NCBI GenBank assembly: GCA_014805015.1
Contig: JAAUYQ010000087.1
Location: forward strand, 1-33,403
Source of the DNA: Clostridia bacterium
GTDB lineage: Bacteria > Bacillota > Clostridia > Christensenellales > Christensenellaceae
Length of the DNA: 33,403 bases
Reading direction: 5' to 3'
The notes beneath the pieces were generated by a model. The model was given only the letters and a program-made list of their open reading frames with translations. It searched no databases and was not told the origin of the DNA. Positions 10,606 through 20,317 of this stretch are shown piece after piece. Within the stretch, counting starts at the first letter, position 1; every line of letters starts with the position of its first letter. Made by a program: the position numbers and the translations under genes.

Positions 10606-10645
10606 AAATAAATCCGGACAGCACTGCTGTCCGGCAATCTCCTTT
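10606..10645 (-). promoter_or_regulatory. Shine-Dalgarno/hairpin/start arrangement for purD
   Basis: Minus-strand order is AAAGGAG (plus 10639-10645), four bases, then CCGGACAGCA-G-TGCTGTCCGG (10614-10634), then ATTTATTT and the ATG at 10605. The palindrome is perfect over 21 bases, giving an 8-bp GC-rich stem with a 5-base loop. Linear spacing is 33 nt. With the hairpin folded out it is 12 nt. No second Shine-Dalgarno exists nearer the ATG. The phage T4 gene 25 leader is a known precedent for a hairpin bridging a distant Shine-Dalgarno. Confidence 0.65.
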
Positions 10646-11860: not shown

Positions 11861-12668
11861 CAACAGTCTCCTCTGCCGCCGGGGCAGGACCGTCTGCCGC
11901 GGCGCTCGCATTGTCGGCAGCGCTTTCCGCTTCTGCGGCAGCCTTTTCTGCCGCCTCCTTCAGATAGTTGCCGTTCACAATGAAGGCTTTCATCTCCCGC
12001 GTGCTCAGATTCACGAAGGCCGCGTAAACCGAAACCCGGTTGTCCTCATTAAGCGAATCCCAGAGGGCTTCCGCGAGCTCCTGCGGTCCGGTCTGCGGCA
12101 AGTTTACGTACAGCGGTTCCCCTGTGAAGGAAGGCAGCGGCGAGCCGTCATCCTGGTATGTGCAGATAAACTGACCTGCGCCCGCCGGCGGATTCTCATA
12201 TTCGAAGTATGCGCGGCAGCAGCAGGACGGATCACCGTCCAGAGCGCGGATAATAGAGAGCATATAGGAGCCGTCCGGCGAGAGGACGCCGGTGATGCGG
12301 GGTGTCCAGTTGGGATCATCCGGCTCAAACCGTCTGGCCGCGAGAGCCTGCTGCGCTGTCCAGCCGGCAGCGGCTGCCGAGCGCACTGAGTCTGTCTGAT
12401 CGCCGTTGCTCACAACAGTGCGGCCGTCCCCCAGCTTCGCGACAGCATTGTAGATGATCAGGGACGGATCCTCCATTTTGCTCTCATCATATGCCTTTGT
12501 GCGGGCGCCGTCGTTGGTTTCCTCGAGAACGCGGTTGCGGCTGTTGGCGCTGCGTCCCATGATAAAGTAGGCAATCACGCCGTTTTCCCCGTCAGGACTC
12601 CTGCCGAGCAGAATTCCCCGGCCGGGATAGCGCTTCTGTTTCAGATACTGGAAAAGATCCTGCTTCAT
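11853..12668 (-). CDS. purO: IMP cyclohydrolase, PurO-type
   Basis: This closes FAICAR to IMP, the final step. The protein has the PurO-type fold known from archaea and also found in Clostridia: GRGILLGRSPDGENGVIAYFIMGRSANSRNRV near the N-terminus, then DPSLIIYNAVAKLGDGRTVVSNGDQTDSV, and PNWTPRITGVLSPDGSYMLSIIRALDGDP in the middle. At 271 residues it is longer than usual because of an acidic, alanine-rich tail from about residue 235 (KEAAEKAAAEAESAADNASAAADG), which looks disordered. It lies directly before the transformylase and overlaps it. The ATG at 12668 has no adjacent Shine-Dalgarno; the good one lies 54 bases upstream across a strong hairpin. Confidence 0.93.
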   Translation of the reverse strand: MKQDLFQYLKQKRYPGRGILLGRSPDGENGVIAYFIMGRSANSRNRVLEETNDGARTKAYDESKMEDPSLIIYNAVAKLGDGRTVVSNGDQTDSVRSAAAAGWTAQQALAARRFEPDDPNWTPRITGVLSPDGSYMLSIIRALDGDPSCCCRAYFEYENPPAGAGQFICTYQDDGSPLPSFTGEPLYVNLPQTGPQELAEALWDSLNEDNRVSVYAAFVNLSTREMKAFIVNGNYLKEAAEKAAAEAESAADNASAAADGPAPAAEETVDG

Positions 12669-12729
12669 GAACTCGCGGCAGGGAGACTCCCACCTCTGCA
12701 GGCAGGGGAGGACTGCCGCACACTCCTTT
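12669..12729 (-). promoter_or_regulatory. Shine-Dalgarno/hairpin/start arrangement for the purO-like gene
   Basis: Minus-strand order is AAAGGAG (plus 12723-12729), three bases, a hairpin closed by GCGGCAG/CTGCCGC (12713-12719 with 12675-12681), then GAGTTC and ATG at 12668. Inside the 7-bp closing stem, CTCCC can pair with GGGAG to extend the structure. Linear spacing is 54 nt; with the 45-nt hairpin looped out it becomes 9 nt, a near-ideal distance. GAG, three bases from the ATG, is too close to act as a Shine-Dalgarno. Confidence 0.65.
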
Positions 12730-12801
12730 CAGACCTGTCTCGTGCCTCCGGTTTTGTATCGTTAGACTGCAGCTTCAGTGCGAGACCAAGAAATAGCTGC
12801 T

Positions 12802-17861: not shown

Positions 17862-18307
17862 GTGCCCTTTTTCAGGCCCTGCTGCCGACCTCGAGCAGGC
17901 TTAAGGCTGATCAGACCACCGCCAGGCGCAGTTCTGCCTGATCTCCCAGATACGGTGATAGCCTCAGATTACCGCTCCCGAGAATACACAAGCTTTAATG
18001 CCCAGATTACTACCCAGATTACTTTTCGGGCACTCGTCCCCATTTTTTCGTATTTGTATTCCGATTTGCATACTGTGTTATGCATGACAAAATTGTATTA
18101 TTCGTCTGCAATTCATGTTAATATATTTGTACGGATCTTCGCAGTATCGTCTGATCTGTCATACAGGACACGGAAGGCGACGCCAGCAGCCGGACTTCCG
18201 GACATCAACATCGGGCTGTAGACCGTAGCTGGCCCAGAGTCTGCGCCTTTTGCTTTAGGACCGCAGGCATGGTGTCATCAGTAATCGTGTCAATTGGAGG
18301 GGACTGG
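17862..18307 (+). other. Gene-free, AT-rich upstream region of the PD-(D/E)XK gene
   Basis: There is no credible coding frame here. Three copies of CAGATTAC (17965, 18003, 18015) lie within 58 bases, followed by an AT-rich block (about 18040-18140) that probably contains the promoter of the next gene. I could not choose a convincing -35/-10 pair. GGAGGGG at about 18296-18302 is the ribosome binding site of the gene starting at 18308. Confidence 0.5.
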
Positions 18308-19531
18308 ATGACAGAAAGAAACAGCAGCGTGAGCAAACATTCTTCGCAGCCTGATGCAGCGCATCAGGCTGGCCCGGTCAGCAGCGGCCCCGTGGGCAAC
18401 CTGCTCGCAGCCGGCCCTGAGGCAGCTGCACTCGACGCCGCGGCCAAAAGTATTCTGAGAGACAAAGATGTCATGGCGTACATTCTGCGCGGCTGCATCG
18501 CCGAGCTTCGGCCATACAGCATGGAGTGTGTGCGGGACTATTTTATGGACCCGGACACGCGCACAGACCTGCCGGTGCACGCCGACGAACGCTATGCGAT
18601 CGAGACTATACGGCGGATGCGGTCCCTTGACCGGGAAAGCAAGGATCCTATCGAAGGTGCCACATACTACGATCTGCTGTGCAAGACCGGACTGCCAGAA
18701 GACGGGATGCCCGATACGGAAGCTGATCTGGTGACCGCCTCTCTCGATCCAGGAGTTCCCCTTCCCTACGAAGGTGTGGGCGGCGGCATCAGCCGGGATG
18801 AGATGCCAGCGCACAGGTCCTTCGCTCCGAGTCAGCTGCTCATAGCAGATTCGGAGATGCAGGTCAGATTCCGGTACGAGCGACTGCGCAGCTGCCGCGA
18901 CACATACTACCGCGCGCGCGTCGTCAGCGAAGAACGCGGGGTGGACTTCACAGACAGCAATTATCAGAATATGCTTGGCGTGGCGAGTATATGGATATAC
19001 CCCCGGCCGCCGGAGTCGTATGCAGCCCGGATCGCCGAGTGGCCGCTGAGGCACGAGGTCATGACCACCCAGGAGCGGAATGAGAGTCGCTCCCTGATCG
19101 CGGGCATGGCTCGTCCGGAGCGGTCCATAGACGTCTATTTGGGCTCAACCGAAGGGCACGTTACGGGCCCCCGAGCAGCAATCGAAATGATGCGCCTACT
19201 GCTGCTTCTCTTCACAGACACCGGAAAGACGCAGCAGGAAATCAGGGGCATTCTCGCAGATACTTATCGCATCCGTGATGCTGAGGGGCTTGCAGAAAGG
19301 AGCATAAACATGTCGAATCTTGCCTTGCAGTACTACGAACAAGGAGCCGATGAAGAACGGGCTAAGATGGAAGCGGAGTTCTCGAGGCTGAAAGAGGAAG
19401 TAAAGATCTCAAATCAGGAGGCAGAAACTTCAAAGCAGGAAACAGAAGCGTTAAAGCAGGAGGCAGAGACGCTGAGGCAGGAAGTCAAGCGACTGAAAGC
19501 GCAGCTTGCGGTCTCCGAACACAAGGCATAG
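18308..19531 (+). CDS. Rpn-type PD-(D/E)XK nuclease family protein with coiled-coil tail
   Basis: This 407-residue protein resembles the Rpn/PD-(D/E)XK nuclease family transposases common in Clostridia. Family landmarks appear in order: DKDVMAYILRGCIAEL near residue 55, EGATYYDLL with the probable metal-binding Asp, a hydrophobic strand LLIADSEMQ that supplies E-x-Q, then TDSNYQNMLGVASIWIYPRPPES. The segment between Asp and E-x-Q is longer than usual and acidic. The last 60 residues form a strong coiled coil with heptad-like EAETxKQE repeats. Rpn proteins promote recA-independent recombination and act as DNA endonucleases in E. coli; here that role is inferred. The start at ATG 18308 follows GGAGGGG; the open frame begins 13 codons earlier without a ribosome site. 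A damaged partial copy lies immediately downstream. Confidence 0.8.
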   Translation: MTERNSSVSKHSSQPDAAHQAGPVSSGPVGNLLAAGPEAAALDAAAKSILRDKDVMAYILRGCIAELRPYSMECVRDYFMDPDTRTDLPVHADERYAIETIRRMRSLDRESKDPIEGATYYDLLCKTGLPEDGMPDTEADLVTASLDPGVPLPYEGVGGGISRDEMPAHRSFAPSQLLIADSEMQVRFRYERLRSCRDTYYRARVVSEERGVDFTDSNYQNMLGVASIWIYPRPPESYAARIAEWPLRHEVMTTQERNESRSLIAGMARPERSIDVYLGSTEGHVTGPRAAIEMMRLLLLLFTDTGKTQQEIRGILADTYRIRDAEGLAERSINMSNLALQYYEQGADEERAKMEAEFSRLKEEVKISNQEAETSKQETEALKQEAETLRQEVKRLKAQLAVSEHKA

Positions 19532-20285
19532 ATCGTTCTCCGCGAGTTATACTGACGAGCCGTGACATCTGCCAAATCAACGTGGCTTCCTGTGCCCACA
19601 GAACCGAGGCTGCCCGAGTCGAAGGCAAATCTTGATGCCCGTCAGTATAGCTGCTTATAGCGGATTTGGAGATGTAGGTCAGATTCCAGTACGAGCTGCT
19701 GCATAGCTACCGCGACATATTCTACCGCGCGTGAGTCGTCAGCGAAGAACTCAGAGTGGACTTCACAGACAGCAATTACCGGAATGTGCTTGATGAGGCG
19801 AGTATATGGATATACCCGCGGCCGCCGGAGTCGTATGCAGCCCGGATCGCCGAGTGGCCGCTGAGGCACGAGGTCATGACCACCCAGGAGCGGAACGAGT
19901 GCTGCTCCCTGATCGCTGGTATGACTCAGCCAGAGCGGTCCATAGACGTCTATTTAGGCTCAACCGAAGGGTACGTTGCGGGCCCCAGAGCAGCTGCGCC
20001 TGCTGCTGCTTCTCTTCACAGATGCTGGAAAGACGCAGCAGGAAATCAGGGGCATTCTCGCAGATGCTTGTCGCATCCGAGATGCTGAAGGGCTTGCAGA
20101 AAGGAGCATAAATATGTCGAATCTTGCCTTGCAGTACTACGAACAAGGAGCCGACGAAGAGCGAGCGAAGCTAAACAAGGAGTTCTCGAAGCTGAAAGCA
20201 GAGGCTGAAGCAGCAAAGCAGGAGGCTGAGACACGGAGGCTGGAAGTCAAGCGGCTGAAAGCGCTGCGTGCGGTATACGAGCGCG
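18834..20285 (+). repeat. Partial tandem duplication of the PD-(D/E)XK gene
   Basis: Copy A spans about 18834-19520 and copy B about 19649-20285. They align without gaps at an offset of 815 bases from a sharp left boundary (AGCTGCT at 18834 and 19649) up to about 19170. Copy B then lacks 11 bases near 19990 (offset 804) and carries a shorter coiled-coil region. The 117 bases between the copies show no similarity to the gene. Confidence 0.9.
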
Positions 20286-20317
20286 AGGCGTCGTCTCTCA
20301 GGGAAAAGCTTCTCTGA
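19649..20317 (+). pseudogene. Decayed second copy of the PD-(D/E)XK gene (C-terminal part)
   Basis: This copy starts inside the E-x-Q region and lacks the entire N-terminal half. Two codons of the intact gene have become stops (CAG to TAG at about 19674, CGC to TGA at about 19732), and an 11-base deletion near 19990 shifts the frame. The C-terminus is still readable from about 20000 to 20317: SNLALQYYEQGADEERAK, then a coiled coil ending YEREASSLREKLL. The coiled-coil segment differs in heptad number from copy A, so it may have evolved separately before the rest decayed. Confidence 0.85.

Follow-up and report, generated by a model that had tools for sequence, protein, structure and literature searches.

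The stretch between the Shine-Dalgarno sequence (SD) and the start codon of the purO-like gene is probably a solo right end of an IscB/HEARO transposon (OMEGA, IS200/IS605 superfamily) that acts as a portable, split ribosome binding site, as judged from sequence comparison. The window, i.e. the whole stretch of DNA analysed (33,403 nt), carries the gene on its minus strand (Table 1). AAAGGAG is followed by TGT, a 45-nt hairpin (12719-12675) closed by GCGGCAG/CTGCCGC, the spacer GAGTTC and the ATG. Looping out the hairpin leaves 9 nt (3 + 6 nt), exactly as described in a first-pass annotation of this DNA; by the count of our script the spacing is 53 nt linear and 8 nt bridged. The claim of that annotation that no other ribosome site lies near the ATG is borne out: a proximal SD is absent, and the only second candidate, GAGGTGGG, is part of the hairpin itself and lies 20 nt from the ATG. 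An ordinary proximal SD is found at most other operon genes, the exceptions being purO and purD, where a distant SD lies beyond a hairpin. The 64-nt stretch from SD to start of purO folds with −28.3 kcal/mol (z −2.6 versus dinucleotide shuffles). An intrinsic terminator was rejected for this hairpin, as no T run follows it.

Table 1. Features of the purO and purD leaders (window positions) and copies of a further right end (contig positions)
Feature	Position	Strand	Basis or remark
Solo right-end repeat (R1 family), SD to start codon	12662..12733	-	Covariance model R1, 79 bits, E 1.4e-23, source genome
Alternative P0 5′ strand GGAGGC	12749-12744	-	Further up; pairs with GTCTCC
P0 5′ strand CGAGAC	12737..12742	-	Position and covariation over copies; GAGAC pairs with GTCTC 12687-12682
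Shine-Dalgarno AAAGGAG	12723..12729	-	Duplex -8.2 kcal/mol; SD kept in 36/36 gene-start copies
P1 5′ strand GCGGCAG, outer stem of bridge hairpin	12713..12719	-	Sequence, covariation
P2 5′ strand CCTGCC, inner stem	12701..12706	-	R1 model alignment; covariation
P2 3′ strand GGTGGG	12689..12694	-	R1 model alignment; covariation
P0 3′ strand GTCTCC, directly 5′ of P1 3′ strand	12682..12687	-	Covariation
P1 3′ strand CTGCCGC	12675..12681	-	Sequence, covariation
6-nt spacer GAGTTC before ATG	12669..12674	-	6 nt in most copies
ATGA, purO start codon and RTGA junction of element	12665..12668	-	RTGA at right edge in most copies
purO-like gene, 271 aa, IMP cyclohydrolase PF07826	11853..12668	-	
purD SD-palindrome-ATGA layout, sequence unrelated to purO repeat	10606..10645	-	AAAGGAG 10645-10639, palindrome 10634-10614, 8 nt, ATGA 10605
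Right end TATAGAGGCGCAATTCCTCC...CTCCTTGCGCGATTTGTTGAA, five copies	C29:338, C95:9726, C50:3094, C15:16468, C18:136		L244, L248, L249, L250, L252

A comparison of the 76 nt around the purO hairpin with the source genome, a fragmented draft of 102 contigs, yielded 15 additional copies with 81-90% identity along with several weaker matches. With a covariance model built from 14 copies (R1), the 2.7-Mb source genome gave 57 copies at E < 0.005, and 17 further genomes of the family contained almost none. That a GC-rich genome produces such hairpins by accident has a negligible probability as an account of these data. The z score of purO is only −2.6, and scanning 332 kb de novo for the order SD-hairpin-start gave 8 cases versus 3 and 2 with scrambled SD motifs, but 57 homologous copies share one layout; chance is refuted as the origin at purO but may account for purD.

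The like layout before purD, also reported in the first-pass annotation, is present, though in a sequence that has no relation to the purO repeat. The leader reads AAAGGAG-ATTG-CCGGACAGCAGTGCTGTCCGG-ATTTATTT-ATGA, with a perfect palindrome of 9 bp and a 3-nt loop, and 8 nt before the ATGA. It was rejected as an R1 copy: model R1 did not find it, and there was one weak partial match, away from a start. A palindrome similar to that of purD is present on contig C89, away from a gene start. The de novo scan returned more SD-palindrome-ATGA cases outside R1, at L098 ~5086, L113 ~10961 and L111 minus ~5724 (reversed coordinates), and the start is ATGA in all of them.

In the best-preserved copies, a transposon body adjoins the purO repeat on its upstream side. 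An example is contig C4, where a HEARO-like RNA (82.6 bits, cut-off 83) precedes a 459-aa open reading frame with RRXRR and HNH domains, characterizing it as IscB, the apparent ancestor of Cas9. The TGA of this iscB is directly followed by CAAAGGAGGCAG, the hairpin, GAGTTG and the ATGAAG of the next gene, and it is this right end that the purO hairpin matches. The genome contains 16 HEARO-like matches, 6 of them above cut-off, and two Y1 transposase (TnpA) genes. In most copies the right edge is RTGA (ATGA or GTGA), which fits the NTGA TAM reported for IsrB (PMC9581776). Complete copies resemble IscB/HEARO elements in their HEARO-like RNA, IscB, palindromic right end and NTGA-type junction, whereas the purO copy consists of the right end only: HEARO RNA and iscB are absent from it, with no Rfam match in the window and only ~70 nt from purN to the element. 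It is a right-end remnant and not an intact IscB/HEARO element. Upstream of solo copies, 7-mer counts revealed no conserved left end.

The same order of parts recurs in two more right-end families of the genome, both different in sequence. In one, AAGGAGGTG-hairpin-AAGCAA-ATGA stands before hslV, murG and rapZ; the other reads ACAGGAGC-hairpin-ATGG on contig C11. At hslV, two right ends are stacked at one ATGA (L238, G000:C93:75000-78600; C93:77487-77552 and C93:76978-77048): directly to the right of an older SD-hairpin comes a second HEARO-type insertion, and the SD-hairpin of this insertion abuts hslV. Another right end, present in five near-identical copies, has a weak SD and mostly no long open reading frame after it.

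At least 36 of the copies examined terminate at the start codon of a gene that looks intact. The genes concerned include pth, rlmH, rimO, a CTP transferase gene, nif3, a low-molecular-weight phosphatase gene, ddl, pyrF, phosphomutase and amidase genes, hslV, murG, rapZ, an aspartate-semialdehyde-dehydrogenase-like gene and terD; in many of them, Pfam domains start within the first few residues. Judging by the translations, two copies seem to disrupt genes, one for an araC-type regulator and the other for an aldo-keto reductase. The density of RTGA is 7.6 per kb and strand, and starts would make up ~6% of RTGA sites if all of an assumed ~2,600 genes began with RTGA; the 36 of 57 copies seen at starts lie far above this value, an excess to which the loss of intragenic insertions must contribute.

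All 36 gene-start copies form an SD/anti-SD duplex of −7.9 kcal/mol or better, with a median of −11.3 (the assembly lacks the 16S tail, which would hold the anti-SD of this genome). In linear sequence their SD is 42-57 nt away from the start, a spacing that shrinks to 7.7 ± 2.1 nt with the hairpin left out; its constancy is partly inherited from the element in copies that are not independent. No rival SD near these 36 starts is better than −3.3. Retention of the SD weighs more for bridging than the tight spacing: a strong SD is present in 36/36 gene-start copies versus 4/11 others, the classes having been assigned once the data had been seen, and in most copies away from gene starts it has decayed. 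Moreover, ~40 right ends without a transposon body retain both SD and stem.

Of 398 genomes sampled from the phylum, 46 contain R1-like right ends, source genome included. Elsewhere, right ends whose SD is strong are mostly found ahead of gene starts (a radical-SAM/BATS, biotin-synthase-like gene, YIEGIA, a sigma-54 activator and a 251-aa open reading frame), and SD strength is associated with position at a gene start (Fisher 0.018, 29 loci). In another genome (L303, G338, ~2740-2810), the sequence after iscB consists of AAAGGAGGTG, an AT-rich hairpin and CTAATT, and leads directly to the ATG of polA. Right ends of the TnpB type in other genomes share the hairpin, are without an SD and are mostly not at gene starts. 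These TnpB-type ends, the palindromic ends found in IS200/IS605 elements (PMC8612924) and the gene-interrupting copies would agree with a pure transposition signal, i.e. a single-stranded DNA palindrome recognised by TnpA, with the SD-like run and the placement at starts reflecting the choice of RTGA and the host genes expressed SD-independently or poorly. The fate of the SD, mostly lost away from gene starts and kept at them, its persistence together with the stem in body-less right ends, and the housekeeping character of many downstream genes make this explanation unlikely.

The genus is represented by one genome, and covariation was therefore tested between copies, not between species. Over 47 distinct copies the hairpin pairs in 95.3% of cells, in an alignment that was fitted to the structure model and so favours high pairing. 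Two-sided changes occur in 9 of 13 pairs; 0 of 500 shuffles reach this covariation, and slid partners pair in 27-57%. The covariation could instead reflect a DNA hairpin needed for transposition. When longer stretches were folded as nested structures, other pairings were often favoured (mean outer-stem probability 0.41 without the helix P0, described below; z +0.8).

Most copies contain GGAGAC ~17-22 nt upstream of the hairpin. This motif is the complement of GTCTCC, which lies immediately interior to the 3′ strand of the outer stem. Across 35 non-redundant copies, 180 of the 210 positions of this helix (P0) pair, compared to 167.2 ± 2.3 with swapped partners, and compensated versions include GGATAT:GTATCC, GGGTAC:GTATCC and GGGGTC:AACCCC. 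The purO copy offers CGAGAC:GTCTCC (5 pairs) or, further up, GGAGGC:GTCTCC. Provided that P0 and P1 coexist, they would form an H-type pseudoknot with the SD in its first loop, which may either present or hide it. Visual inspection revealed no P0 in right ends of other genomes, and the helix may be specific to this lineage.

With at least 36 unrelated genes, strong SDs, no proximal SD and a covarying stem, the bridged Shine-Dalgarno reading is well supported by the sequence data. The first-pass annotation had coupled it to a control point of the purine operon that responds to temperature, a ligand or a protein, and this part is not supported. The same element precedes pth, rimO, murG, rapZ, hslV, ddl and terD, genes with no common pathway, and the sequence is that of a transposon right end. 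Moreover, among 83 purO homologues elsewhere, 80 are preceded by an ordinary proximal SD, so that conserved purO regulation was rejected. The annotation had named relatives with purO-like genes, no stem and a proximal SD as speaking against it; finding them argues against conservation, and it shows only that the arrangement is lineage-specific, not that bridging fails here. A purine riboswitch or other ligand-sensing leader, and likewise a known RNA family for the hairpin, were rejected: no relevant Rfam match exists in the window or in the other copies, where the only hits are to HEARO, from the transposon body, and weak ones attributable to chance. A regulated switch in general, in which P0 and the pyrimidine tracts of the hairpin compete for the SD, could draw on the covariation of P0, on the complementarity of both TTCCTCC and GTCTCC in the hairpin to upstream purine tracts and on the alternatives to P1 often preferred in nested folds. 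Given the diversity of the genes, the Rfam result and the plain SDs of the purO homologues, we consider it very improbable.

Translational coupling would require a short reading frame started from the SD, or an upstream gene, that stops at the TGA of ATGA and allows reinitiation at the ATG. The purO copy does contain a GTG frame from 12721 that stops at this TGA, and iscB itself stops at ATGA in right-end family 2. However, the GTG lies just 1 nt from the SD, and ATG, GTG or TTG is found 2-12 nt past the SD in only 1 of 42 copies, on which ground a conserved upstream reading frame was rejected. In solo copies the upstream stop codon is mostly tens to hundreds of nt away. Coupling has, in our estimate, hardly any likelihood.

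For the split ribosome binding site we propose the following scenario. An IscB/HEARO right end would have become fixed immediately in front of the purO start codon, ATGA; an element sitting with RTGA at its right edge would find natural sites in ATGA and GTGA start codons. The right end would bring along a strong SD, the hairpin and ~6 nt. In the mRNA the hairpin (P1/P2) would be looped out and probably tied down by P0, and the 30S subunit could pair with the SD and reach the start codon at an effective spacing of ~8 nt, so that the host gene stays translated. Such rescue of the host gene may be the reason why insertions at start codons survive. We lean, by a small degree, towards the wider view that an IscB-type lineage evolved a portable, pseudoknotted, hairpin-bridged ribosome binding site that spares genes at RTGA starts, and that its remnants serve as dozens of native initiation sites, many of them of housekeeping genes.

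Phages provide the known cases of bridged Shine-Dalgarno sites, in a couple of genes. Bridging of SD and AUG by RNA structure has been proven for genes 25 and 38 of phage T4 (PMC3014915), where it shortens the spacing from 27 to 11 and from 22 to 5 nt; here it would be from ~53 to 8. The T4 cases are single native sites with short stems, whereas here a longer hairpin with a covarying pseudoknot helix is transposon-derived and dispersed over dozens of genes. IStrons are likewise mobile elements of the IS200/IS605 or IS607 type in which a device at the RNA level limits harm to the host gene, but they splice themselves out of the mRNA, while the element described here would stay in it and supply the initiation site (PMC4227781). 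The present case also has a parallel in other mobile DNA, since REP- and MITE-type repeats and mobile promoters consist of short palindromes, repeated and dispersed, that supply genes with regulatory signals. The element described here would deliver a ribosome binding site in register with the start codon rather than a promoter. The preference for start codons may already be described in the founding HEARO, ISC and OMEGA literature; we found no description in the open-access literature of a right-end SD used by the host gene past the junction. Carriage of a bridged ribosome binding site by a transposon end appears to be new, bridging itself being known from T4. The proposal suggests how OMEGA transposons could occupy the starts of important genes, namely by supplying the translation signal themselves. 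Such starts would be misread by gene finders that rely on an SD close by. With 36 or more near-parallel cases, this one genome amounts to a natural experiment on the distance tolerated between SD and start when the intervening RNA folds.

Two further observations concern other parts of the window. At 379-2052, a transposase-like gene is split by a stop into two frames (ORFs 379-1620 and 1627-2052). At 18269-20317, a long stretch (FTDSNYQN...WIYPRPPESYAARIAEWPLRHEVMTTQERNE...) is nearly identical in two tandem, partly duplicated open reading frames, of which the second is truncated and frameshifted.
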